Numbered from the stretch's first letter, positions 31,212 through 45,743 are shown. The stretch is DNA of 45,743 nucleotides from Candidatus Pacearchaeota archaeon (GCA_017608705.1 JAFCFJ010000002.1:1-45743), one strand, 5' to 3'. Made by a program: numbers and translations. The notes: generated by a model from the letters alone, not told the origin.

Positions 31212-31709
31212 ATGGCAGAACCTATTTTCACAAGCACAATATTCGTAAATTACATATTACCGTTTCTCTTTGTTTTCACTGTTATTTTTGCTGTACTCGA
31301 GAAAACTAAGCTGTTAGGTGAAGACAAGAAGCAGATAGATGCTATTGTGGCATTAGTGGTTGGCCTCTTTATTATAGCATTTCCTTATCCTCGCAATATT
31401 ATTGTGAGTTTGATGCCCTTTCTTGCTGTGCTCATAGCCATTCTTCTTGTGTTCATGCTTTTGTATGGTTTTATAGGAGGCAAGACAGAAGGCGATGTTC
31501 TTGACAAAGGCGTGAAGATCGTGTTGAGCATACTTGTTGCCATATCCGTTGTAATATTTCTCGTGTGGGTGACTGGTGCTTGGGAATTTTTGAGGGCAAG
31601 GCTAAGTGGGGAGTTCGGAGAGCAGTTTTGGTCTAATGTAATTTTTGCAATAATAATCCTTGGCGTTATTCTTGCAGTTTTGTTGCCAGGGAAAAAAGCA
31701 GAAAAATAA
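31212..31709 (+). CDS. Multi-pass membrane protein, tandem paralog 1 of 3
   Basis: LPFLFVFTVIFAVLEKTKLLGEDKKQIDAIVALVVGLFIIAFP. Confidence 0.7.
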   Translation: MAEPIFTSTIFVNYILPFLFVFTVIFAVLEKTKLLGEDKKQIDAIVALVVGLFIIAFPYPRNIIVSLMPFLAVLIAILLVFMLLYGFIGGKTEGDVLDKGVKIVLSILVAISVVIFLVWVTGAWEFLRARLSGEFGEQFWSNVIFAIIILGVILAVLLPGKKAEK

Positions 31710-31761
31710 TCTTGCAAGGGAAAACAGAAAGATATTTAAATAAAAAGTTGTTGAAAAAATT

Positions 31762-32310
31762 ATGAGTCTGCTTGGATATCTGGGGTATTATGGAATAGAT
31801 GCTATTTTGCAGCAATGGGCTGATATGGGTGTTTTTGAATTCGCATTACCTTTTATGCTCGTCTTTGCTGTTGTTTTTGGTGTTCTCAGTACGATTAAGT
31901 TATTTGGCGAGAATAAGGGGATAAATGCTGTTATAGCGATGGTTGCTGGCCTTATGGCGATTACCTCAGAATCACTACGTTCATTCTTTTCTACAATATT
32001 TCCTTATCTTGGTATAGGGCTTTTGATTTTCCTTGTAATCCTTATTTTGGTTGGTTTGGTTATGCCAGCGGAGAAAGGATGGTTTGTTGCACTGACTATC
32101 ATCGGGCTGTTGATCGGTCTTATCGTAGTATTTACATCCTTAACCTCCTCGCAATGGCTCTCTTCATATTGGTGGGAACAATATGGCGGGCTTGTTATTT
32201 TGGCTATTGTTTTTGGCGGAATGATTGCCGCAATTATAGCTTCAAGAGGAAAGAAAGGTGGTGGGAAGTCTGAACCTTTCCAACTTATAGCATGGCGCCC
32301 TGAAGAATAA
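31762..32310 (+). CDS. Multi-pass membrane protein, tandem paralog 2 of 3
   Basis: LPFMLVFAVVFGVLSTIKLFGENKGINAVIAMVAGLMAITSE. Confidence 0.7.
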   Translation: MSLLGYLGYYGIDAILQQWADMGVFEFALPFMLVFAVVFGVLSTIKLFGENKGINAVIAMVAGLMAITSESLRSFFSTIFPYLGIGLLIFLVILILVGLVMPAEKGWFVALTIIGLLIGLIVVFTSLTSSQWLSSYWWEQYGGLVILAIVFGGMIAAIIASRGKKGGGKSEPFQLIAWRPEE

Positions 32311-32312
32311 AA

Positions 32313-32786
32313 ATGGCAGATGTAACGCTCAGCGCGTTTTTGCCGGTCTTTAGCTTTTTGTTTGTTTTCGTGGTTAGCTATGCGATTATTGCCAAGACAA
32401 AGTTGCTTGGTGAGAACAAGTTTATCAATATTTTTGTGAGCTTTCTTATTGCGATAATGTTTCTTAGCTTTTCTTCTGCTAGGGAATATGTAGTCAATAT
32501 AATCCCATGGGTGGCTGTTCTGTTTGTTGTTTTATTTTTCATAATGCTTCTTATCGCGTTTACAGGAAAACTTGAAGATATCATGAAACCAGGATTTGTA
32601 TGGGTCTTCGTCATAATATTGCTTTTAGTTTTTATTATTGCAGCGATAAATGTTTTCTCTGGTATTTTACAGGAATTTCTTCCAGGTGGCACACGTGCAC
32701 AATTTATTTACACAAAGAGATTTTTAACAAGCTTCGCGCTTGTAGTTACAGCAGCTATTGTTTCCTGGGTTCTGACAAGATCCTAA
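32313..32786 (+). CDS. Multi-pass membrane protein, tandem paralog 3 of 3
   Basis: LPVFSFLFVFVVSYAIIAKTKLLGENKFINIFVSFLIAIMFLSFS. Confidence 0.7.
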   Translation: MADVTLSAFLPVFSFLFVFVVSYAIIAKTKLLGENKFINIFVSFLIAIMFLSFSSAREYVVNIIPWVAVLFVVLFFIMLLIAFTGKLEDIMKPGFVWVFVIILLLVFIIAAINVFSGILQEFLPGGTRAQFIYTKRFLTSFALVVTAAIVSWVLTRS

Positions 32787-32809: not shown

Positions 32810-33694
32810 TTATTCTTTGGCTTTTTCTTCAGCAATTCTTTTTAGTTCTCTTATGCTTTCTTCCAATGGGTTGAGTATTTTTGCGAAACTTTCTTGCATG
32901 GCCTCAAGTTCTTGTTTTATTTCCTTAACATCATTTATATAATCACCTACACGACGTAAAACTGCTACTTGTAAGGCATCGACCAATGTGTTGAGTCTAT
33001 CAAGCTTTTTCTCAATGGCTTTTATTTTTGTTTCAGTTCTTACTTTGAAATCTTCCAGGCTAGAGAATTTTTCGTTTATCTTCTCTATTTTTTCATCAAC
33101 AATCTGCGATACGATCTCGTTTATCATGGAATAGTCTGGTTCAGCATAACCATATCCATAGGCTTCACCTTCTGTTCCCTGTACGTAACTTTCTGGCTGG
33201 GTTATTGTTTCTTGACTAGGCATAGCTTCGGGCGGCGATATGGCAGGGGCCTGGGTTGTAGTTTGGGCAGGAATTGTTTCCTGCGTCACGGGTTGTAATG
33301 TTTCTGCTGGCGGCGCTGCCTGTGGAACTTCTGGTTGTTCCATTACCTGGGTTTCGGATTTTGCGGTTTCTTGTTCTGGAACTGGTGGAGTTGGTATGGA
33401 TGGGGTTGGTTGTTTTTCAGACATTTCCTGTATAGTCTGTGGCTGTTGTTGCTCCTCACTTTCTCCAGTACCAAATGGCCTTATCTCTTCAGATGGTTTT
33501 TCCATTATACTGGGCTTCATCTCTTCGCTAACCTCCTGTTTTTTACCAGATGCTATTGCTTCCTTTATTTTTGCCTGCTCTAGTGCATCATGGATTTCAA
33601 TCGGACTTTTGCCTTTTTCTCTTAACACATTAATAATTTCAGCATCAGAAAGTCCTTGCTCTTTCAGTTTTTTCACCTCTTCTATCAAACCCAT
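32810..33694 (-). CDS. Coiled-coil protein with Pro/Gln/Glu-rich linker
   Basis: N-terminal helical MGLIEEVKKLKEQGLSDAEIINVLREKGKSPIEIHDAL; PQ-rich middle; C-terminal heptads. Confidence 0.65.
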   Translation of the reverse strand: MGLIEEVKKLKEQGLSDAEIINVLREKGKSPIEIHDALEQAKIKEAIASGKKQEVSEEMKPSIMEKPSEEIRPFGTGESEEQQQPQTIQEMSEKQPTPSIPTPPVPEQETAKSETQVMEQPEVPQAAPPAETLQPVTQETIPAQTTTQAPAISPPEAMPSQETITQPESYVQGTEGEAYGYGYAEPDYSMINEIVSQIVDEKIEKINEKFSSLEDFKVRTETKIKAIEKKLDRLNTLVDALQVAVLRRVGDYINDVKEIKQELEAMQESFAKILNPLEESIRELKRIAEEKAKE

Positions 33695-33701
33695 TCTAAA
33701 T

Positions 33702-34103
33702 TTAGTCCTTAACAGTTTTTAATAATTTCTCTTTTAGCTTTTTTTCTACAATTTTATCTATGATCTCTTCAACTTCGCTCTTTTTCACGAACTCCAGAGG
33801 CTGAAATATTTTTGCCTGCTTTCTCAGTATCTCTAGCTCGGATTTTCTCGCAAATTCGTCAGCTTGTTCCAATAATTGCGAAACAGCATGTCTTATGTCC
33901 TTAATTATTTCTTCGAGTTCTAACAATTTCGCTTTTATTTTTCTTAGTTCTTCTTCTGTATTTTCCCTTATTTTTATTATGTTATTGCCGATAAGCAAAA
34001 CTCTTTGCCTCAGTAGTTCCTGTTTTTCCTCTACATCTTGGAGCCTTACGTTGAAGTCTGAAAGCAATGCAGTCACGTCTTGCTGCTCTTCGAATTCTAC
34101 CAT
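33702..34103 (-). CDS. Coiled-coil protein
   Basis: MVEFEEQQDVTALLSDFNVRLQDVEEKQELLRQRV...; heptad-like charge pattern; same strand and adjacent to the previous coiled-coil gene. Confidence 0.65.
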   Translation of the reverse strand: MVEFEEQQDVTALLSDFNVRLQDVEEKQELLRQRVLLIGNNIIKIRENTEEELRKIKAKLLELEEIIKDIRHAVSQLLEQADEFARKSELEILRKQAKIFQPLEFVKKSEVEEIIDKIVEKKLKEKLLKTVKD

Positions 34104-34136: not shown

Positions 34137-35306
34137 TTAAATTTCTTGCTGTCTTGCTATTTTCCATCTAACAAGCAAATATGAAAACATAAGCGGGATG
34201 GCGAACTGGAATACTATACTTGAGGCAAGAATTATTGAGTAGAGGTCTGAGCCAATCATTCCATTTTCGAGCAAGAGCTTAACTATAACTATGCTTATGC
34301 TGAATCTTACCGACAAGCCAATTCCGAGCAGTATGGATTGTTTGAAGCCAAATTCCTTTCTTCCGACAATCCAACTTGCAAGAAGTTTCGCTCCGTTCGA
34401 GACAACTAACACTAGAAGGATGAGCAGGGGATATGTGATTAGATATCTCATATTCATAGTTACGCCTGCCCATACGAAGAAGAGCGGGGCGAAAAATCCA
34501 TAGCACATGGTTTTGATTTCGCTCTCTATTCTTTTGAACCTCTTTTCTGGCACAAATGTTTTTATCGCGATGCCTGAAAGCAAGGCTGCCATGGGAGCAG
34601 CATGTGCATATTCACCTATGCCTAAAAACAGAAATAAGATAAAGAGTGAGAAGAGGAATAGGATTTCTATTTTCAAAAATCCAAATTTTTTACCTTCTTC
34701 CTTTAATTTTGTAAGGCTGAAAGTCAGTCCAAAGAGAATAGCTAAAGAGGCTAGCATAAGGGCAATATTTATTCCTGTATGGATGGAAGACCCGACAATT
34801 ACTACTACAAGGATAAGAGCGAATATCTCTATTAAGTCATCTAGAGTTCCTATTCCGATAATAGCCTGTCCAAGCGGAGTATTCACTATGTTGAACTCGT
34901 GGAGTATTGGAGCAAGGATAGCTTCGCCTACTGTGGCGAATGATAGTGCCACGGCAAACGCTATGAGCCATGGATAGTGGAAGACAAAATGCACAAGCAT
35001 TGTGCCGAAAATGGCCTCAAAAAGGACAATAAAGAATGTTGCCTTGAATATGAATCTTGTTTTTTTCTTTAGCTTGTTGAGATCTATTTCCAGCCCGATT
35101 ACAAAGAGCAAGAAGTACATTCCGAGTTGTGCAAGAAACTCGAAAGTTTTTGATGACGTAACATCCGCGAACGGGTTATGTATTGCGAGAAAAGCGCCGA
35201 GAATGAGAGCAGCAAAGATCCACGGGACTCTTACCTTTTCTATAATTCTTCCTATCAAAAAGGTAAATATGAATATTAAGGCAAGAAACAAAAATATGTT
35301 TATCAT
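34137..35306 (-). CDS. Na+/H+ antiporter (CPA2 / NapA-KefB type)
   Basis: GRIIEKVRVPWIFAALILGAFLA, AQLGMYFLLFVIGLEIDL, ALSFATVGEAILAPIL, GTLDDLIEIFALIL. Confidence 0.85.
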   Translation of the reverse strand: MINIFLFLALIFIFTFLIGRIIEKVRVPWIFAALILGAFLAIHNPFADVTSSKTFEFLAQLGMYFLLFVIGLEIDLNKLKKKTRFIFKATFFIVLFEAIFGTMLVHFVFHYPWLIAFAVALSFATVGEAILAPILHEFNIVNTPLGQAIIGIGTLDDLIEIFALILVVVIVGSSIHTGINIALMLASLAILFGLTFSLTKLKEEGKKFGFLKIEILFLFSLFILFLFLGIGEYAHAAPMAALLSGIAIKTFVPEKRFKRIESEIKTMCYGFFAPLFFVWAGVTMNMRYLITYPLLILLVLVVSNGAKLLASWIVGRKEFGFKQSILLGIGLSVRFSISIVIVKLLLENGMIGSDLYSIILASSIVFQFAIPLMFSYLLVRWKIARQQEI

Positions 35307-35387: not shown

Positions 35388-37646
35388 ATGGAATTCAAGC
35401 CAGGGAGCAAGCTCTATTTTTACGAAATAGAGCGAAAGGCAGGTGAAACGATAGCATATGTGAATTTTCTCGGCGCCCCGTTTGTGCCAAGTATAGCGAG
35501 AATGCCAGAAGTTATGGAGAAGGTTATTGATATTCTCGGAGAGAATCCAAATATATCTCGTGTTGTGTTGGTGCAGCAAAGGAATTACAGCTACGGCGGC
35601 GAGCAGGTGATGATGTTACAGGAAATTGCCCAGCTTTACGAGTATCTCACCAAACAAGAGAATATCTTGCACGGCAGTAAGCTTGCATTCTGTGAAAAAT
35701 GTCTTGGCCGTAGATACAGTGAGATGGCAAAATTTCTTGTTTTGCTCAAGCGTGATCCTATTGGTGCTTACAATTTCGTGAAGAGGCTTGGTAGAAGTGA
35801 GCCAAGTATTGACGATAGATGTAAGGATTGTAATGTTGCTTATCGCAGGCTAATAGAAAAAATTACTTCATTACTCGAAGCCACAAAGTTAATAAGGAGA
35901 GCTGTGAAATTTATGGACAAGTACTCTGGACGCGAAGTTTATGAAAAGATATTCAGACCAGATGTCTTGCCAAATTTTGTTTTTACAAGGCTCACTGCGT
36001 TACTGCCTGACGAGGCTGAGATAATCGACCAGTACGAGATAGGTAAGGGCAAAGACAAGAGTAGCGTCACTATACTGAGGAGAAGAGGTGAAACAAGGTA
36101 TTTCTACCATCTATTGCCTCCAGAATACACGCTGAGAGAAGAACAGCAAGAACTTGTAAATTTGGCAAGAAATGTGCTGAGTGAGCATAGGCCGAAAGCA
36201 GAGGAATTTACAGATCCTGAGAGAATACGAAATATATTTTTCAATATAGCACGCGATTTATTGCAAGAACTTGCTGAGCAGAAAAAAATAAAGTTAAGTT
36301 ATGAAGAATTGATAAAGCTCTCTAGGATTTTGGTGAGGCACACCATTGGTTTTGGCCTCCTTGAAATCTTGTTGCAGGATGAGAAGCTCCAGGATATCGT
36401 GCTGAATGCTCCTATCGCTTTGAACCCGGTTTATGTTCGGCATGAAAAATATGATGAATGTGTAACGAATATATGGCCTAGTCAAGAAGATGCAGAAGGA
36501 TGGGCAGCCAAACTAAGGATGTTAAGTGGCAGGCCTCTTGATGAAGCCAATCCTGTTCTTGATACGGAATTGCTACTGGAAGGCGTGCGTGCAAGAATTG
36601 CAGCAATACAACAACCGCTGTCGCCAAGTGGTTTAGCGTATGCAATAAGAAGACATCGTGACAAGCCATGGACGTTACCTCTTTTTATCAAAAACAAAAT
36701 GCTTGATAGCTTCACCGCCGGCTTGCTTAGCTTCCTCATAGATGGCTCGCGCACGCTTTTGGTTGCAGGAACCCGCTCGGCAGGTAAGACAAGCTTACTC
36801 GGCAGTCTTATGCTTGAGATTATGCCAAAATATAGAATTATTGTTGTGGAGGATACCCTTGAATTGCCAGTTACCTCATTGAGGAAACTTGGCTATGATA
36901 TCCTTAGGATGAAAGTGCGTTCAGCCTTGCTCAGCGAGAGCACAGAGATAGGGGCTGATGAGGGTATACGCACAAGCCTAAGACTTGGTGACAGTTGCTT
37001 AATTGTTGGTGAAGTTCGTAGCACTGAGGCGCGCGCTCTCTATGAAGCGATGCGTGTTGGCGCTCTTGCTAATGTCGTGGCAGGCACAATACATGGAGCA
37101 TCGCCTTATGGTGTGTTTGACCGTGTTGTTAACGATCTTGGTGTTCCTGCTACGAGTTTCAAGGCGACAGACATTATTGTTGTGGCAAATCCTGTAAAAA
37201 GTCCCGATGGCTTACACAGCTATAGGCGTGTTGTTCAGGTCGCAGAAGTTCGTAAGCATTGGACACAGGACCCTCTAGAAGAAAATGGTTTCATAGATTT
37301 GCTTCGTTACAATGTGGAAAAAGACAGGCTTGAACCGACGGCGGAGCTGATAAACGGTGAAAGCGAAGTGATAAAGGCAGTCGCGGCCAATGTTCGTGGC
37401 TGGGCCGGAAATTGGGACGCTGTTTACGATAATATCATGTTGCGGGCCAAGGTAAAGCAAGAACTTGTTAATACAGCGTCAAAACTCAATAAGCCAGAGC
37501 TGTTAGAAGCAGATTTTGTTGTGAAGGCAAACAATATATTTCATGAAATTTCTGATAAGGTGAGGGAAGAGATAGGCGTGCCGGAGAGCAAGCGGGTGTT
37601 CCCGCTGTGGAAAGACTGGCTCAAGAGCGAGGTTGAGAGGATTTAA
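35388..37646 (+). CDS. Type II/IV secretion (T4P-like) system ATPase
   Basis: VAGTRSAGKTSLLGSLMLEI Walker A, IIVVEDTLELPV Asp box, LIVGEVRSTEARALYEAMRVGALANVVAGTIHG Walker B/His box. N-terminal CxxC...CxxC module. Confidence 0.92.
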   Translation: MEFKPGSKLYFYEIERKAGETIAYVNFLGAPFVPSIARMPEVMEKVIDILGENPNISRVVLVQQRNYSYGGEQVMMLQEIAQLYEYLTKQENILHGSKLAFCEKCLGRRYSEMAKFLVLLKRDPIGAYNFVKRLGRSEPSIDDRCKDCNVAYRRLIEKITSLLEATKLIRRAVKFMDKYSGREVYEKIFRPDVLPNFVFTRLTALLPDEAEIIDQYEIGKGKDKSSVTILRRRGETRYFYHLLPPEYTLREEQQELVNLARNVLSEHRPKAEEFTDPERIRNIFFNIARDLLQELAEQKKIKLSYEELIKLSRILVRHTIGFGLLEILLQDEKLQDIVLNAPIALNPVYVRHEKYDECVTNIWPSQEDAEGWAAKLRMLSGRPLDEANPVLDTELLLEGVRARIAAIQQPLSPSGLAYAIRRHRDKPWTLPLFIKNKMLDSFTAGLLSFLIDGSRTLLVAGTRSAGKTSLLGSLMLEIMPKYRIIVVEDTLELPVTSLRKLGYDILRMKVRSALLSESTEIGADEGIRTSLRLGDSCLIVGEVRSTEARALYEAMRVGALANVVAGTIHGASPYGVFDRVVNDLGVPATSFKATDIIVVANPVKSPDGLHSYRRVVQVAEVRKHWTQDPLEENGFIDLLRYNVEKDRLEPTAELINGESEVIKAVAANVRGWAGNWDAVYDNIMLRAKVKQELVNTASKLNKPELLEADFVVKANNIFHEISDKVREEIGVPESKRVFPLWKDWLKSEVERI

Positions 37647-37681
37647 AAATCTGGAAGTTTTTCAAGGATAAAAGAGGTGAA

Positions 37682-39820
37682 ATGGATGCAAGAGATATTT
37701 TGCGAAAATATGAAAGAAAAATAGAGCAAGAGCTTAGCGATTTCAAAGAGACAAGCGGTTCTTATTCACGAGAATATATGAAGTTCAAGCAGGAGATGTT
37801 TCCCGAACTCTCCCGCTATGAGCGATATTGTGCTACCTTTGGTAATATAATTAGGATAAGACTTGCTAAAAAAGATGAGAAGAAAATACGTAAATATCTT
37901 AATGTTGCCCATCTGAGCGTGGAGCCTGGCCAGGCTGTGGGCCTCGCCCTTTTTTCATTTCTTGCTGTTTTCTTCATAGGTATTATTTTGAGCACAGCAA
38001 TTTTCATGCTGACTGACACCTTTCCTGTCGTGTTTATGCTTCTCATGCTCCTTACCTCAGCGTTTGTTTTTTACTATACTTTAACATTCCCACAGAGGTT
38101 AGCAAATTTATGGCGTCTCAAAGCTAGTTCGCAGATGGTACCATGCATGCTCTATATAGTTGTTTATATGAAACACACTAGCAACCTTGAGAGGGCAATA
38201 GAATTTGCTTCTCAACATTTACAACCCCCTCTTGCTCTCGACCTGAAAAAAATTTTTTGGGATGTTGAAATAGGGAAGTATAGCACGATAAAGGCCAGCC
38301 TCGATGCTTATCTTGAGAGATGGCGTGAAGACAGTCCAGAATTTATCGAGGCCTTCCATCTTGTGGAATCGAGTTTGTATGAGCCAATAGAGGCAAAACG
38401 AATCGAGACACTTGAGAGAGCATTACAAGTTATTCTTGATGGTATCTACGAGAGAATGCTTAAATATACACACGAGATAAGAGCACCTCTTACAAATGTG
38501 TATATGCTTGGCATAATTTTGCCGACTCTTGGCTTAGCGCTCTTGCCTTTAGCCTCAGCGTTATTACAAGGTATGATAAGTTGGTATCATATTTTCGTGC
38601 TTTTCAACTTGATAATTCCTTTCTTCGTGTTCTATATGACCAATGAGATTCTTATGAAGAGGCCTGGTGGTTATGGCGAAACAGAATTGCTTGAGTTGAA
38701 TCCATACTATCACGAATTTGTGAGCAGAAGGCCATACTGGATTGCTCTTGCAGTAGCCTTGCCTTTGTTTATTATTGGTCTCCTACCTCTGCTTTTTGGC
38801 TATACATCTTTTCCAGAGATTTTGGGTTTACCTAAAGATTTTAGCATGAGCTCATTCAAGTTTCTTGGCACAAAGTTCTTTGATTTCAGAGAAACTGCTA
38901 ATGGTGTTATGGGTCCTTTTGGTATTGGTGCGGTATTGCTTAGCTTGTTTATTCCTTTGAGCATTGCTATTTTCTTTGCTATTTCATACAGCCTGAAGAC
39001 AAGAAATCTGATAAAAGCAAGAGAGGAAACGAAAAAGATAGAGGAAGAATTTGCATCTTCGTTGTTTCAGCTTGGCAATAGACTTGCAGAGGGCATACCA
39101 GCAGAAATTGCATTTTCACATATGCAGGCCATATCTCGTGGCATGAGTGTAGAGGGTTTCTATAGGATAGCGAATAGCAACATTCAGAATTTAGGTATGA
39201 ATCTTGAGCAAGCTATATTTGATAAGAAGCGGGGTGCGATTGTTTACTATCCTTCTACATTGATCGCTACGAGCATGAGCATTCTTGTTGAGGGTGTGAA
39301 AAAAGGGCTGAAGATTGCTGCAGACAGCCTCATGTCGATTTCACAGTACATAAAGAATATTCATAAAATAAATGAGCGCATGCGTGATTTGCTTGCTGAG
39401 ATAGTGAGCGATATGAAAAGTAATGCAACCTTTCTTGCTCCTTTGCTTGCTGGCGTTGTTGTGGGCTTGGCGAGTATGATAACACTAATACTTGGAAAGC
39501 TCGGATCGCTTTTGCTTTCAGGTCAGGCTGTTGAAGTGGCTGGTGTGGAACTTGGAACGATCATGCAACTTTTCAACATAGAAGCGATTATTCCACCATA
39601 CTTTTTGCAGATAGCGATTGGGCTTTATATAATACAGGTGATATTTATTTTGACAAATGCTATTATAACAGTAGAATCTGGTGTTGATAAGCTTAAGGTT
39701 GTGCACCAAACAGCACGAAATCTCAAACTCAGTATAACTCTTTATTTGCTTGTTGCATTATTCGCGATTCTTGTGCTTTCAATAGTTGCAAGTGTAGCAC
39801 TTGGTGGTCTTGGCATATAA
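37682..39820 (+). CDS. TadC/GspF-like T4P membrane platform protein (duplicated T2SSF)
   Basis: 712 aa, multiple TM segments and GspF-like repeats (MVPCMLYIVVYMKHTSNLERAIEFASQHL; FASSLFQLGNRLAEGIPAEIAFSHM). Confidence 0.85.
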   Translation: MDARDILRKYERKIEQELSDFKETSGSYSREYMKFKQEMFPELSRYERYCATFGNIIRIRLAKKDEKKIRKYLNVAHLSVEPGQAVGLALFSFLAVFFIGIILSTAIFMLTDTFPVVFMLLMLLTSAFVFYYTLTFPQRLANLWRLKASSQMVPCMLYIVVYMKHTSNLERAIEFASQHLQPPLALDLKKIFWDVEIGKYSTIKASLDAYLERWREDSPEFIEAFHLVESSLYEPIEAKRIETLERALQVILDGIYERMLKYTHEIRAPLTNVYMLGIILPTLGLALLPLASALLQGMISWYHIFVLFNLIIPFFVFYMTNEILMKRPGGYGETELLELNPYYHEFVSRRPYWIALAVALPLFIIGLLPLLFGYTSFPEILGLPKDFSMSSFKFLGTKFFDFRETANGVMGPFGIGAVLLSLFIPLSIAIFFAISYSLKTRNLIKAREETKKIEEEFASSLFQLGNRLAEGIPAEIAFSHMQAISRGMSVEGFYRIANSNIQNLGMNLEQAIFDKKRGAIVYYPSTLIATSMSILVEGVKKGLKIAADSLMSISQYIKNIHKINERMRDLLAEIVSDMKSNATFLAPLLAGVVVGLASMITLILGKLGSLLLSGQAVEVAGVELGTIMQLFNIEAIIPPYFLQIAIGLYIIQVIFILTNAIITVESGVDKLKVVHQTARNLKLSITLYLLVALFAILVLSIVASVALGGLGI

Positions 39821-39845
39821 TTTATAAAACCAAGTTTATTCATCT

Positions 39846-40019
39846 ATGGAGAAAATGTTTGCAAAAAAGAGGAAAGCGGACATAGAGCTTGAAACTCTCG
39901 CCTGGTGGCTTCTCGCCTTGATTGTGCTTGCAATAATGCTTGTTGCTTTTTTTGTGCTTCGTGGCAAAGGTATTAACGCGATAGAGTTCATAAAAAATCT
40001 TTTCAGGTTTGGAAAATGA
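39846..40019 (+). CDS. 57-aa single-TM pseudopilin-like protein (not in ORF track)
   Basis: MEKMFAKKRKADIELETLAWWLLALIVLAIMLVAFFVLRGKGINAIEFIKNLFRFGK*. Confidence 0.75.
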   Translation: MEKMFAKKRKADIELETLAWWLLALIVLAIMLVAFFVLRGKGINAIEFIKNLFRFGK

Positions 40020-40186
40020 CACAAGAGCTCGCCTTAAGAAAGTTGATAGTGATAATAATCATAGCAATCGTTCTCGCTATTATGATATTCTTCCTTGCCA
40101 GAATCAATATAGTTGATTGGCTCAAGAATATCTTTCCTGATTTTGGTAGCGAGAAACTTTGTATTGCTCTGTTGAGAAAATGGTAA
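40016..40186 (+). CDS. 56-aa single-TM protein (not in ORF track)
   Basis: MTQELALRKLIVIIIIAIVLAIMIFFLARINIVDWLKNIFPDFGSEKLCIALLRKW*; ATGA overlap with the previous gene. Confidence 0.7.
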   Translation: MTQELALRKLIVIIIIAIVLAIMIFFLARINIVDWLKNIFPDFGSEKLCIALLRKW

Positions 40187-41175
40187 TGCTAACGAGTGAA
40201 AAGCGCGCATTATTGCCAGCTGAGACAGCGAGGATTGTGCTTGCGGTTATAGGTATAACCTTCCTTGTGATTCTTGCAGGGAAATTGTGGTTTCAAAAAA
40301 ATGCTACGGAAGAGCAGAGGAAAAACATGGCTGAGCAACTTGCAGCGAAACTAAACGGGATGGAAGATGGCGAGTTGGCTACTATGCTGCTTCTGAACTT
40401 GCGGGGAAACTATCTTGTTAGCTATAACGCTAAACTCGAGAAGCCAAGTCTCTGTAGCTTTGGTTCATGCATTTGTATTTGTCCCTCGACAGCTGGTTTT
40501 CCTGCCAGCCCAATAAGACTCATCGAGGCATGTGATAAAAATGGTATATGCAAAGAGGTAAAGCATGAGATGGGCGGGCTTAGTTCTGGAGCAACATTTG
40601 CAGAAGAAATCAACAAGGATATTTTTGTTGTTGATCTTATCCGGGTGAGAGAGAAAATATTATTTTCGTTCCTTCCGAATGAGCAGAGCTTTGATGCAAA
40701 AAAATTGCTAAAGGATGGAGCATTCAATAGCTGGGAAACTGTCGATATAACGTTTGACTATTTGTATCCAAATTCAGGAGAGGCTATGGAGGCGAGTGCT
40801 GGCAAAGATATAAGCCAGAAGGTATTGCTCAGCATCTTCCTCACAGATTATATTGTTTCAGGCAAGAGTCCTGATGAATTTATCGAGGCTGAGAACAAGA
40901 GTCTATTAGGCATAGCAAAAAAAATTGGTGTTAGGTGTGAAAGCAAGGAAAAGCTTGACAATATATTTAGCTGCCTCTCATCGCTCCTTGAAAAACTGCA
41001 AGAGGTTTCACGAGAGCAGGAGAGCGAAGAGATAAATATGGAAACAAGAACTATATGGTTGTATGCGGTTGAGAGGCAAGGCAGGGCTGATGAGGAATGG
41101 GGGCGAATATTCTGGAATATATACAATAGTTTGCAGAGCACAAGCTCGTTGCTTGGCGAGATCTCTGGGCCGTAA
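40180..41175 (+). CDS. Single-TM exported protein of the T4P-like cluster
   Basis: MVMLTSEKRALLPAETARIVLAVIGITFLVILAGKLW... then Cys-containing ectodomain. Confidence 0.7.
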   Translation: MVMLTSEKRALLPAETARIVLAVIGITFLVILAGKLWFQKNATEEQRKNMAEQLAAKLNGMEDGELATMLLLNLRGNYLVSYNAKLEKPSLCSFGSCICICPSTAGFPASPIRLIEACDKNGICKEVKHEMGGLSSGATFAEEINKDIFVVDLIRVREKILFSFLPNEQSFDAKKLLKDGAFNSWETVDITFDYLYPNSGEAMEASAGKDISQKVLLSIFLTDYIVSGKSPDEFIEAENKSLLGIAKKIGVRCESKEKLDNIFSCLSSLLEKLQEVSREQESEEINMETRTIWLYAVERQGRADEEWGRIFWNIYNSLQSTSSLLGEISGP

Positions 41176-41176
41176 A

Positions 41177-41299
41177 ATGAATAAGAGAAGAGGTAGGAGG
41201 GCGATAGAAGAGCTTGTGAAGATTGTGTTATGGATAATTTTGTTCATAGTGCTTGCCTCAGCACTTTATTTTTTGCTCAGACGCCTGACAGGAGGTTAA
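41177..41299 (+). CDS. 40-aa single-TM protein
   Basis: MNKRRGRRAIEELVKIVLWIILFIVLASALYFLLRRLTGG; start internal to ORF 41063. Confidence 0.65.
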   Translation: MNKRRGRRAIEELVKIVLWIILFIVLASALYFLLRRLTGG

Positions 41300-41329
41300 G
41301 TTTAAATTTTTCAAAAACCTTGGGAAAAG

Positions 41330-42323
41330 ATGAAAAGAAATGGAGAGCTTACATCAAAGCAGCTTGTTACGATAATCTTGTTAGTGGTTGGTTTTGCCAT
41401 ACTGCTGATATTCTACGCTTCATTCCCTTGGCGTCAAGAAGCGAGCAAGCAGGCATGCCATCAAAGCGTAGTTATGAGGGCTACGATGCCATCTGTCGCG
41501 CAGAACATGATACAGCTGAATTGTAAAACAAGCAAGATTTGTCTTACAGCTTCGCGTTTCGGCAAATGCAAAGAATTTGAAGGAAGCAATGATGTGAGAC
41601 GTATCGTTGTTCGGAGCAAGGAAGATATAGAGCGCGCGCTCATACAGGAAATGTATGACTGTTGGTGGATGATGGGCGAGGGCAAGATAAGTCTATTCTC
41701 ACGATACATTGCTGAAACTTATGGTCTTAGCAAGATATATCCTACTTGTGTGATATGCTCGAGAATAGCCTTTGCTGATGATATAGGCAGGGTTGTGAGT
41801 GAAGATGAACTGAGCAGTATTGATTTGATAAAATATGCGAAGGAGCCAAAACGTGAAGCTTGGTGATATAGCCACGTATCTTGAGGAACTTGGCGTGGCG
41901 ATTGATGCAAGCGAAGAGGATGAGCAGTTGTTCGAGCCAATACAGCAGGGGGCTAGCACAAAGAGCAAGGAGGTTGCAATCTTATTCATGCAAATAAATG
42001 CACCGGGCCAGATTGACAGCCTTGTTAATCTTGCCTATGCTCTTGCCGGAACAGCAACCCTCGGTTCGTTCGTGGCGCCCAAAACGGTGGTGGCGGGCTT
42101 CAAACTTGCTGCGAGCCATCCAGCCTTGACTCTTGTGGCCATGGCGCTCGGCGTAACAGCACAACAGCTCAATGTTGCGTGGCAACGTAGTATTGCTGCA
42201 GGTTATTGCGGTGACCTCACGAGTAGTAGTGAGGCAAGAAATGGTTGTTCTGCTGTTCGTATTGTTAGCTATGAGCCCGAAGCAATCTCTCAGTTTTGTG
42301 TAAACATTGAGGGTATGAGCTAA
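41330..42323 (+). pseudogene. Single-TM Cys-rich protein apparently split by a frame change into ORFs 41330-41866 and 41835-42323
   Basis: First half ends ...SSIDLIKYAKEPKREAW*. Second half in another frame ...NVKLGDIATYLEELGVAID...VAILFMQINAPGQ...AAGYCGDLTSSSEARNGCSAVRIV. Removing one A from the A4 tract at 41848-41851 fuses them. Confidence 0.5.
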
Positions 42324-42376
42324 AAGTGCTGGTAACAAGAGGCAAGCTTTATTAAACCATCTCTCCTATAATTTTC

Positions 42377-42680
42377 ATGCCAGGAAAAAGAGGTGCCACT
42401 GAGTTGGTTATGGAAAATCTAATTTTTATCATTCTGAATATAGCCTTCTTTGCTTCTGGCGAAGCCAGGAACAAACATAACTCTTAGCTTAGACGAGCTT
42501 TTCAGGAGGGCAAGCAAAAATAGCTTCAGCGGTAATGTGGTGAGCATAGATCCAAAAACCAATGCTGTGCTTGTCAGAGTTAGCGAGAGAAGTGGTTATG
42601 AGATGAGACACTTCAATCCAAATGCAGTGGTGTGGAAACTCGATAAAGAAGATAAAGCCCTGTTCCTCGAAATAAAATGA
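42377..42680 (+). pseudogene. Single-TM protein with internal frame change
   Basis: Frame 1: MPGKRGATELVMENLIFIILNIAFFASGEARNKHNS*. Other frame: LLAKPGTNITLSLDELFRRASKNSFSGNVVSIDPKTNAVLVRVSERSGYEMRHFNPNAVVWKLDKEDKALFLEIK*. Confidence 0.55.
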
Positions 42681-43087
42681 GAAGGCAAGGCAAACTTATG
42701 TCCGCATGGTGGTTCTTTGTGATTGTGATCATAGCAGTAGCTGTTATCTCTGCTACGGTTATGTTCTATAACTCAAGTTTTGATACAAGAGAGCTCGAAG
42801 CTAAAATTATGGCAACAAGAGCCCTGACATGTATTATGCATAATATTTCGCTTGCAGATTGCTTTTCCACCGTTGCCATGCAAGCCTGTAATTACTATAT
42901 AGCTATTCTTGACGAAAACAATGTTGTTATTGAGGAACTTGGAAAGCGCGCGTTTTTGCAAGAGTGTGAAATACAGCGCAAGGTTATTGCAAGGCGCTAT
43001 GCAAAATGTTACAGCACAAGACTCTATTTGAATGATAGGCTTATTCGTGTGCTTACAGCAAGCAATGAAAATGGCAAGAGGATTTAG
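42677..43087 (+). CDS. Single-TM protein of the T4P-like cluster
   Basis: MRRQGKLMSAWWFFVIVIIAVAVISATVMFYNSS...; start overlaps previous stop. Confidence 0.7.
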   Translation: MRRQGKLMSAWWFFVIVIIAVAVISATVMFYNSSFDTRELEAKIMATRALTCIMHNISLADCFSTVAMQACNYYIAILDENNVVIEELGKRAFLQECEIQRKVIARRYAKCYSTRLYLNDRLIRVLTASNENGKRI

Positions 43088-43628
43088 CAAAATGTTTAGG
43101 GCAAAAAAAGCACAGGTAGGTGTTACGCTAACATGGTTTTTCGCATTCTTACTGATATGCGTGATAATCTTTCTATTTCTTGCATTCTCAAGCATGATAT
43201 TTGCGAAGCGAGTACCAACAAGGCTTTTGTCAAGCATCACAGACAAATTTTTTGGCTCTACTACGCTGTATGAAGGAAGAGAGCTGGACATGCTTTTGCT
43301 TTCATCATTGTTGCAAGGCAATGCTGAGTGGCAAGCTGGCAACTCTACATTGTTCGATTTGGTGAGATATTGGGCGATGACTGGCAACAGCGAAGTTGCA
43401 GGAGTTATAAAAAATAAGATTGTGGCAGTAATTAGCCAGCATGAATGTTATTATTTTTACATTCCTTCGCAAAAACTCAGCTATGATGCTCTTGTCTTGA
43501 TGCAAGGCCATGGCTATTCGAAGATGCCGACAAAACTCATTGCTGAGCTTGATAAGGATTCAGCTATGCTAAGGTTTGGCGAGGCAAAAGAAAATAAAAT
43601 ATATCTGCTGACAAGATGTGTAAAATGA
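43071..43628 (+). CDS. Single-TM protein of the T4P-like cluster
   Basis: MARGFSKMFRAKKAQVGVTLTWFFAFLLICVIIFLFL... Confidence 0.7.
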   Translation: MARGFSKMFRAKKAQVGVTLTWFFAFLLICVIIFLFLAFSSMIFAKRVPTRLLSSITDKFFGSTTLYEGRELDMLLLSSLLQGNAEWQAGNSTLFDLVRYWAMTGNSEVAGVIKNKIVAVISQHECYYFYIPSQKLSYDALVLMQGHGYSKMPTKLIAELDKDSAMLRFGEAKENKIYLLTRCVK

Positions 43629-44344
43629 TAAAAGAAAAAAGAGGGAGCATTTACATAGTATTGCTTGTGTTCATGACCTTAGCGCTATGCATAGCCTCTC
43701 TTTTTATTTTTGTAACACAATCTTACAAAATCAACAAGAGGTTTGCGGAACTAAACATGCTCGACAAAATCTATGCCAATGCTACGGGGACAGAGTTCTA
43801 TGTCAGACAGAGCATGGGAGAGGCGATGGTAGAGAGTTACAGGAAAATTGTGCAATACTACGAGTTTATTGATCCAAGTTGCTTCGAAGATGGCGTGCCT
43901 TTCTTTTGCTCTCTTTCCTCAGACATTAACACAAAATTTGTACAGGAATTTGAAAAAAGTTTCAGAAACAAAATAAGCAAGGTTTTGCAAAACAATGCAT
44001 TTGAGGTCAATTTTGATGGTAACACGGTTCATGTCAAAACAGCATTGTTTTTAGAAGAGAAAAATAGGCATGCTAGAGTTAGCTATCTTTATACATTCAA
44101 TGAGAGCGTTTCACTTCGCGATCTCGGGCTCGTGAGTTTTTCAGCTTTGCATAATATAGCTATGGAATGTGTAGCTAACGAGAAATGCTGGCAACAAGAG
44201 CTCGCGGATTTTGATTCTCGCGTTACAAGAATCGAGGCAGGGAGCGAGACCTATTACAAAATCACGCTTGAGAGCAAGCATAAATTTTTTACAGACAAAA
44301 AAACTCTAGAAGGTGTGAGGCTTGATTTTTATTTGCGTGGATAG
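43625..44344 (+). CDS. Single-TM pseudopilin-like protein
   Basis: MIKEKRGSIYIVLLVFMTLALCIASLFIFV...; ATGA overlap with previous gene. Confidence 0.7.
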   Translation: MIKEKRGSIYIVLLVFMTLALCIASLFIFVTQSYKINKRFAELNMLDKIYANATGTEFYVRQSMGEAMVESYRKIVQYYEFIDPSCFEDGVPFFCSLSSDINTKFVQEFEKSFRNKISKVLQNNAFEVNFDGNTVHVKTALFLEEKNRHARVSYLYTFNESVSLRDLGLVSFSALHNIAMECVANEKCWQQELADFDSRVTRIEAGSETYYKITLESKHKFFTDKKTLEGVRLDFYLRG

Positions 44345-44401
44345 TTTTACAAAACCTTTTTAAATCCTTGTTTGTTATTTTTGGCAAGAAAAGAGGTTAA
44401 A

Positions 44402-44809
44402 ATGGAAAAAACAGGACAAGGTACTCCGATATGGGTCATCATCGCGTTGGTGCTTGGTCTTGTAGTGCTTGTTGTCTTGATAATTGGCTTTACGCAGGGA
44501 TGGGACAAAGTGCGAGACTGGTTTACCCCAAGCAGCAATCTTGCAGCAATACAGCAAAACTGTGAGACAGCATGCGTAACAGGAGTGAAAGCAGATTTCT
44601 GTGCATTGCGTGAAGTCAGGGGCATAGCTGATGCCGAGCTGAACAAAATTGCAAGAGAGATCAGCGGGGGCCAAGAATGTGGTGGCACGGATAGGATTAA
44701 TGGAGAGAACGGGCAGTATGTTGATTGCAAGAGGAAAAAAGCCAAGGTTACTTGTGAAACACTCGCTAACATAGATTTGATAAGTGTGAGTTGTGATTTC
44801 ACTTGCTAA
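44402..44809 (+). CDS. Single-TM protein with Cys-rich ectodomain
   Basis: MEKTGQGTPIWVIIALVLGLVVLVVLIIGF..., eight Cys in the ectodomain. Confidence 0.72.
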   Translation: MEKTGQGTPIWVIIALVLGLVVLVVLIIGFTQGWDKVRDWFTPSSNLAAIQQNCETACVTGVKADFCALREVRGIADAELNKIAREISGGQECGGTDRINGENGQYVDCKRKKAKVTCETLANIDLISVSCDFTC

Positions 44810-44820
44810 AGTTTCGTGAA

Positions 44821-44940
44821 ATGAGCATAGATTATGCAGTGCCGGACAAGCGCACCACCAAGAAAGATCTCAAACGTAAGCGTAAGTATCGTGTTTATAA
44901 GCGTGGTGGCAAGCATAGAACCGCGAGTAAGAAAAAATAG
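44821..44940 (+). CDS. 39-aa highly basic protein (not in ORF track)
   Basis: MSIDYAVPDKRTTKKDLKRKRKYRVYKRGGKHRTASKKK*. Confidence 0.5.
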   Translation: MSIDYAVPDKRTTKKDLKRKRKYRVYKRGGKHRTASKKK

Positions 44941-44948
44941 AATGGGAA

Positions 44949-45743
44949 ATGGAACCAGAATTTTTTCTCTTTACCCTTGCCTTAATATGGATTATTGCAG
45001 CTGTTGTTCAGGATGTAAGACAGAGGGAAGTAGCTAATTGGCTTAATTATGGTCTCGTGCTCTTTGCATTTATCTTCCGTGTTTTCTATTCACTTCTCCA
45101 TAGCAGTTTCTCGTTCTTGCTTTACGGCCTTGTTGGCTTTGGTATTTTCTTTGTTCTTGCTTATCTTTTCTACTATTGTCATGTGTTTGCTGGTGGCGAC
45201 GCAAAACTTTTTATGGCTCTGGGCATGGTCCTGCCAACTGCAAGAAGCTTGACTGAAAATATTTTTCTTCTCGCTGTGTTTGTCTTTTTGCTTTTTGTTG
45301 CTGGCTCTATTTATGGCTTTGTCTATTCAGCACTTCTCGTGATGCTGAAACCAAAAAAATTTTCGCAAGAATTTTTAAAGCTAGCGAGGCAACGGCGATG
45401 GAAAGCCAACATTATTCTTGCGGTTGTGTTTGCATTGATACTCTCTGCACTAGCTTTTCTAACAGATATCGCACTGCTTTTTATGCTTGCCGCCCTTATT
45501 CTTGCATTTCCTTTCCTATATCTTTATGCCAAGGCCATCGAGGAAGCATGCATGGTTAAAAGTATAAAAACGAGAGCATTGCGAGAAGGAGACTGGCTTT
45601 ATCAACCAGTTAAGCTTGGTAAAACACTAATAAAGCCAAGATGGGAAGGTCTTAGCGTGGAAGAAATAAAGCTTTTACAACGTTACAAGCGAAGAGTTAA
45701 GATAAAGGAAGGAATGCCGTTCACAGTTGCTTTCCTTATAGCC
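44949..45743 (+). CDS. Prepilin peptidase-like A24 membrane protease (partial, runs off right edge; not in ORF track)
   Basis: MEPEFFLFTLALIWIIAAVVQDVRQREVANWLNYG... and HVFAGGDAKLFMALGMVLP: D-x-R-xx-x-V-x-N-x-L and GGDAK aspartic protease motifs. Confidence 0.88.
   Translation, partial: MEPEFFLFTLALIWIIAAVVQDVRQREVANWLNYGLVLFAFIFRVFYSLLHSSFSFLLYGLVGFGIFFVLAYLFYYCHVFAGGDAKLFMALGMVLPTARSLTENIFLLAVFVFLLFVAGSIYGFVYSALLVMLKPKKFSQEFLKLARQRRWKANIILAVVFALILSALAFLTDIALLFMLAALILAFPFLYLYAKAIEEACMVKSIKTRALREGDWLYQPVKLGKTLIKPRWEGLSVEEIKLLQRYKRRVKIKEGMPFTVAFLIA

Follow-up and report, generated by a model that had tools for sequence, protein, structure and literature searches.

The gene run at 35388-45743 raises the question of what is built by a locus in which an assembly ATPase and a TadC-like membrane platform are followed, all on one strand, by ten pilin-like genes and an A24 prepilin peptidase. 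The window (the whole stretch of DNA analysed, 45,743 nucleotides) is an entire contig, C11, of a Candidatus Pacearchaeota genome of 0.6 Mb in 35 contigs, the nearest named relatives of which are metagenome assemblies of that group. The answer we consider probable is a heteromeric pilus or short pseudopilus: in Pacearchaeota and related DPANN archaea, a type IV pilus (T4P)-type machine would assemble it from some eight to ten prepilins dedicated to it. The carriers are a group of tiny, probably symbiotic archaea, almost all of which have the machine. None of the papers searched dealt with Pacearchaeota and a prepilin peptidase together.

Comparative loci were taken from whole genomes and from a scan of named genomes (80 loci). 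Iterative HMM searches, confined to the loci retrieved and with E<1e-3 as the limit for family membership, covered 98 loci, many of them on truncated contigs; a fixed rule set the start codons. Figures for distribution refer to sampled metagenome-assembled genomes (MAGs) of varying completeness. The features of the window are listed below with coordinates, strand and, where available, the number of loci holding the family; a slash marks the predicted cleavage site and TM stands for transmembrane.

31212-31709, +, mem1, small multi-TM protein, mostly with 5 predicted hydrophobic segments; related family in 56/98 loci, mostly directly upstream
31762-32310, +, mem2, small multi-TM protein related to mem1 and mem3; 56/98 loci
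32313-32786, +, mem3, small multi-TM protein related to mem1 and mem2; 56/98 loci at E<1e-3, where the families cross-hit
32810-33694, -, cc1, coiled-coil protein, divergent from the ATPase; 60/98 loci; without TM segment in 60/60
33702-34103, -, cc2, second coiled-coil protein; 61/98 loci; without TM segment in 60/60
34137-35306, -, Na+/H+ antiporter gene (PF00999 E=1.1e-36), between cc2 and the ATPase
35388-37646, +, assembly ATPase of T2SSE / GspE2-FlaI-CpaF type (PF00437, PDB match, motifs)
37682-39820, +, TadC-like membrane platform, a single long protein (relatives, architecture, position)
39846-40019, +, p57, Flp-sized prepilin-like protein (KRKA/DIELE); 77/98 loci; KK[GAS]-type site in 70/77
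40016-40186, +, slot 2, here a 56-aa TM protein with a DWLKNIFPDF motif; 59 slot-2 proteins compared
40180-41175, +, p331, prepilin-like protein with E+5 (KRA/LLPAE) and a CxCxC region (alignment); 73/98 loci
41177-41299, +, p39, tiny single-TM protein (RRA/IEELV); 56/98 loci
41330-42323, +, p178, prepilin-like, frameshift-split (41330-41866 plus 41835-42323); single ORF in relatives; 73/98 loci
42377-42680, +, p100, prepilin-like (GKRG/ATELV), broken here (tblastn against intact relatives); 58/98 loci
42677-43087, +, p136, prepilin-like; AlphaFold2 model; 68/98 loci
43032-43628, +, p198, prepilin-like (KKA/QVGVT); 72/98 loci
43616-44344, +, p242, prepilin-like (EKRG/SIYIV); 65/98 loci; site in 64/65
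44402-44809, +, p145 family, candidate major pilin; 80/98 loci, often in 2 or 3 copies; KK[GAS]-type site in 88/96
44821-44940, +, ORF of 39 aa between p145 and the peptidase, Lys/Arg-rich (MSIDYAVPDKRTTKKDLKRKRKYRVYKRGGKHRTASKKK, sequence read by eye)
44949-45743, +, A24 prepilin peptidase (PF01478 E=1.3e-13), cut by the contig end

In this assembly two of the small genes are not intact. The frame of p178 changes between about 41840 and 41880, and since its counterpart in relatives is one ORF of about 300-390 aa, p178 and the following p162 were treated as one frameshifted gene; p162 as a separate gene was rejected, being the C-terminal part of p178. Comparison with intact relatives by tblastn showed that p100 is missing about 30 residues and shifts frame near 42455. 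Both disruptions could be assembly errors or real decay. The initial annotation had counted ten consecutive short single-TM genes, and the number ten still holds, with p178 and p162 merged into one and p100 recognised as broken. The true start of p198 is probably a later ATG than the one at 43032.

Among the loci from named Pacearchaeota MAGs, 38 had wide flanks, and 34 of these hold all six core pilin-like families. Lack of a conserved gene order had been named beforehand as one of the findings that would refute the interpretation; this test was run and did not refute it, p136, p198 and p242 being adjacent in 34/34 loci. The prepilin peptidase was present in the neighbourhood of 33/38 well-flanked loci. 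The ATPase and the pilin block are both inverted relative to TadC in nine of these loci, still within the cluster. Elsewhere in the class there are families in which TadC is separated from p178 or lies on another contig. The position of the small genes beside the ATPase and TadC is not due to chance. Presence of p178 was recorded in 168/180 genomes of the order (20/20 among those at least 90% complete) and in 286/371 of the phylum sample. Upstream, mem1-mem3 and the divergent cc1/cc2 also belong to the conserved neighbourhood, with mem1 and mem2 adjacent in 19/38 well-flanked loci; no Pfam family reaches the cut-off for mem1-mem3 (31212-32786). An antiporter family between cc2 and the ATPase was seen only in the window, among the 98 loci.

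The ATPase was identified by comparison with Pfam (T2SSE PF00437 E=6.6e-13) and with the PDB, where GspE2 (2oap) gave E=1e-26 and CpaF and FlaI were also matched. Its motifs GTRSAGKTS (Walker A), GEVR and GTIHG are nearly invariant across 60 orthologues, and from these intact motifs the enzyme looks active. The platform protein (712 aa) had no Pfam hit, including T2SSF, and its profile found no match in the PDB. The label TadC-like was given for its length, for 7-10 predicted TM segments, for a position next to the ATPase and for weaker matches, over both halves, to other proteins of about 610-660 aa in genomes of the same class. The protein was recovered from 54/56 relatives, with 53-64% identity within the order, and the gene is present in 235/241 genomes of the class. 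The annotation from which we started had read this region as a duplicated TadC. That reading has to be given up: it is one long protein, and internal duplication was rejected when a profile comparison of the two halves gave no detectable similarity. In archaeal T4P a long platform that carries two T2SSF domains is the normal case (PMC6668835).

Sites of class III type were evaluated in the small proteins as [KRH][GAS] directly before the hydrophobic helix, and were found in 535/575 proteins of eight families (93%). Two basic residues before G/A/S (KK[GAS]-type) occur in 489/575 proteins of the eight families, with K/R-K/R-G/A motifs at the same place in orthologues. Other N-terminal TM proteins of these loci served as controls, of which at most 24/72 carried a site; this figure is a maximum, since the 24 include several proteins that are clearly p100-like and had escaped the search. 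Glu+5 is common in p331 (34/67), as is D/E in p100 (24/51), and rare in the other families. The pilin-like set thus has predicted class III signal peptides, judged by these sites. The claim that most of the small proteins bear them was borne out for the eight families and less so for two others, as p39 (26/51) and the slot-2 protein (24/59) are often without the KK[GAS]-type motif and p39 has a class III-type site in only 31/51. No small protein matched a known pilin family in Pfam.

Structures were predicted for two families. The AlphaFold2 model of p136, built from 27 sequences, has a pLDDT of 89 and comprises a long kinked N-terminal helix (residues 4-54), four strands and one intervening helix. 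This predicted overall shape is pilin-like; a Foldseek search with the model returned nothing significant (best E 0.02), so that the fold gives no proof of homology to pilins. The p178 orthologue of another locus (L065) was modelled with pLDDT 76 and pTM 0.72, showing helices at the N-terminus (residues 15-58), an alpha/beta domain and, towards the C-terminus, further long helices (residues 276-341), with no fold match in the PDB or BFVD. Conserved gene order, conserved predicted class III-type sites and the pilin-like predicted shape of p136 together give good support to a T4P-like machine with a heteromeric pilin-like set, as had been proposed.

The second position of the small-gene series, between p57 and p331, is the variable one. 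The gene there is usually packed tightly against p331 and has a recognisable N-terminus, a TM helix often followed by a motif resembling W-[IL]-[KR]-N-LPGF (DWLKNIFPDF in the window). The 59 proteins compared range from 51 to 684 aa, and their ectodomains from near nothing to more than 600 aa. Ectodomains of at least 150 aa fall into 17 groups, mostly unrelated. The large slot-2 ectodomain of L065 was found in 2/180 genomes (its own and one partial match), against the 168/180 for the nearby p178.

The largest slot-2 protein, of 684 aa (locus L040, 7700-9751, -; G011:C1, a 575-kb contig), has within its ectodomain a lysozyme domain of phage tail type (PF18013 E=1.2e-26). The ectodomain also matches tail tape-measure PHROGs, and phi29 gp13 (3csr) only at E=0.03; towards the C-terminus there is weak likeness to C39-type cysteine peptidases (Guanylate_cyc_2 E=0.065, Peptidase_C39_2 E=0.22). 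A second lysozyme ORF lies just downstream and is 58% identical to part of the slot-2 protein. Both PF18013 matches of this genome are inside the cluster, and any match was found in only 2/200 genomes of the order. Apart from the lysozyme, nothing convincing was found when the other slot-2 ectodomains and enlarged subunits were compared with Pfam and PHROGs. A general recombination-cassette system feeding slot 2 was also considered and rejected; nearby duplicates were seen only in L040 (58% identity), L109 (33% identity) and L053 (tandem p145-like copies). In general, archaea are known that use peptidoglycan hydrolases to kill bacteria (PMC12352652), and a search of the main text of that paper found no mention of a pilus or pilin.

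From this material a more far-reaching scheme can be drawn, in which a class-wide DPANN cell-contact machine uses a polymorphic slot-2 pilin with exchangeable exposed domains, either adhesins or hydrolases such as the lysozyme, so that a type IV filament presents different payloads to neighbouring cells or drives them against these in the manner of a phage tail tip. We regard it as unlikely and keep it as a possibility only, because the lysozyme fusion is one case. As a determinant of host or target specificity, the variable slot is a specific candidate.

Under the favoured reading, a heteromeric T4P-type structure, the parts can be tentatively placed as follows. The A24 peptidase would cleave the prepilins after [K/R][G/A], and the ATPase and TadC platform would extrude the subunits. 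The shaft may be made by p145, p57 or both, and p331, p178, p100, p136, p198 and p242 would make up a complex that initiates assembly or sits at the tip. The exposed domain of the slot-2 subunit would be exchanged between genomes, lending the surface a variable adhesion or enzyme activity, and cc1 and cc2 would act at the cytoplasmic side. The remark that the locus has no obvious major pilin is doubtful, because the multi-copy p145 family is a plausible one; its KK[GA] site is degenerate in this genome (EKTG/Q). The role of the machine is most likely contact with another cell, as suggested by the lifestyle of DPANN archaea, the cultivated members of which all need direct contact with a host cell according to Hamm et al. 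2024 (PMC11291902).

The same genes could also belong to an archaeal type IV pilus of the ordinary kind, long and adhesive, with p145 (or p57) as the major pilin, the rest as minor ones and nothing special to host contact. The copy number of p145, which is sometimes tandemly duplicated as are other archaeal major pilins (PMC4858521), agrees with this, as do the Flp-like size of p57 and its frequent acidic-Tyr pair. However, at least six conserved minor-type subunits and a hypervariable one go beyond the simple archaeal T4P plan, in which an ATPase and TadC are accompanied by a single minor and a single major pilin, and a more canonical T4P locus already exists in the genome on contig C29, which together make an ordinary pilus rather unlikely. 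Quite improbable, in our estimate, is a piston similar to type II secretion, in which a pseudopilus pushes soluble proteins through the envelope and no surface filament is made. Such a piston would be in keeping with a heteromeric, low-copy pilin-like set, with E+5 in p331 and with the absence of any detected known major pilin family, but no gene for a secretin-like protein or a substrate was found at the locus in the window, and the variable domain is not encoded as a free substrate, being part of the pilin-like slot-2 subunit by fusion.

That the small proteins are no pilins at all, and instead remain unprocessed as single-TM accessories of an ATPase-TadC complex, we hold to be very improbable. 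The frequent lack of a class III site in p39 and in short slot-2 proteins would suit accessories, as would the failure to match pilin families and the long helices near the C-terminus of the p178 model. Against this stand the K/R at -2 and G/A at -1 just before the helix in eight families, and the peptidase that lies nearby in most well-flanked loci.

As a whole, the locus has features of the T4P superfamily: an ATPase with intact motifs, a prepilin peptidase and predicted class III pilin sites. Among the scanned locus proteins no type II secretion secretin was found over the cut-off, the sole Secretin_N match having E=0.075 and 13.7 bits against a cut-off of 28.2, and no Pfam family of archaellum FlaH/ArlH or archaellins was present. 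The CpaF-like ATPase, the TadC-like platform and the very short p57 subunit are reminiscent of Tad/Epd systems, which differ in having two single-domain platform genes (PMC6668835) where here there is one gene of 712 aa. The archaeal T4P ATPases of clade 4F include nanoarchaeal members without identifiable pilins (Makarova et al. 2016, PMC4858521), and an N-terminal Cys-rich domain is often present in this clade. The present enzyme, a possible member, is a T4P-type ATPase with an N-terminal extension that bears two CxxC pairs in the window, the cysteines of which are kept in only 8-12/60 orthologues. The second T4P locus of the genome (contig C29, L058, 2568-9805) likewise has a T2SSE ATPase, TadC-type proteins and single-TM pilin-like genes, but its ATPase is of 510 aa, its two TadC-type genes are separate, and its smaller set of about six pilin-like genes is a different one. 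Most relatives similarly carry more than one PF00437 match.

The closest counterpart is one of the two T4P loci described in cluster 2 DPANN archaea by Hamm et al. 2024 (PMC11291902, Fig. 4), Locus 2, which contains CpaF, TadC and coiled-coil proteins and is reported there in Pacearchaeota among others. An ATPase and TadC beside two coiled-coil genes are found here too, with cc1/cc2 in about 60/98 loci; the match with Locus 2 and with its coiled-coil proteins NAR1_03220 and NAR1_01690 is by gene content only, and cc1 is a probable counterpart of one of them. Hamm et al. liken the coiled-coil proteins to viral attachment proteins (PMC11291902); since the 60 members each of cc1 and cc2 are without a TM segment, we favour a cytoplasmic location over surface attachment. 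In the text and legend of that report filament proteins are named only for Locus 1; neither the variable slot, nor the peptidase, nor any of the ten pilin-like genes is assigned to Locus 2 there. The machine had been thought to be undescribed, which is no longer tenable for its ATPase, TadC and coiled-coil part, as this matches Locus 2 (PMC11291902), and is tenable for the filament proteins, which the text and legend of that report leave unassigned. What is new here is the likely cognate pilin set, including a hypervariable slot that in one genome holds a phage-tail lysozyme domain. With probable cognate pilins and conservation over most of the class, the locus offers a defined set of proteins to be sought in cultured DPANN-host pairs.
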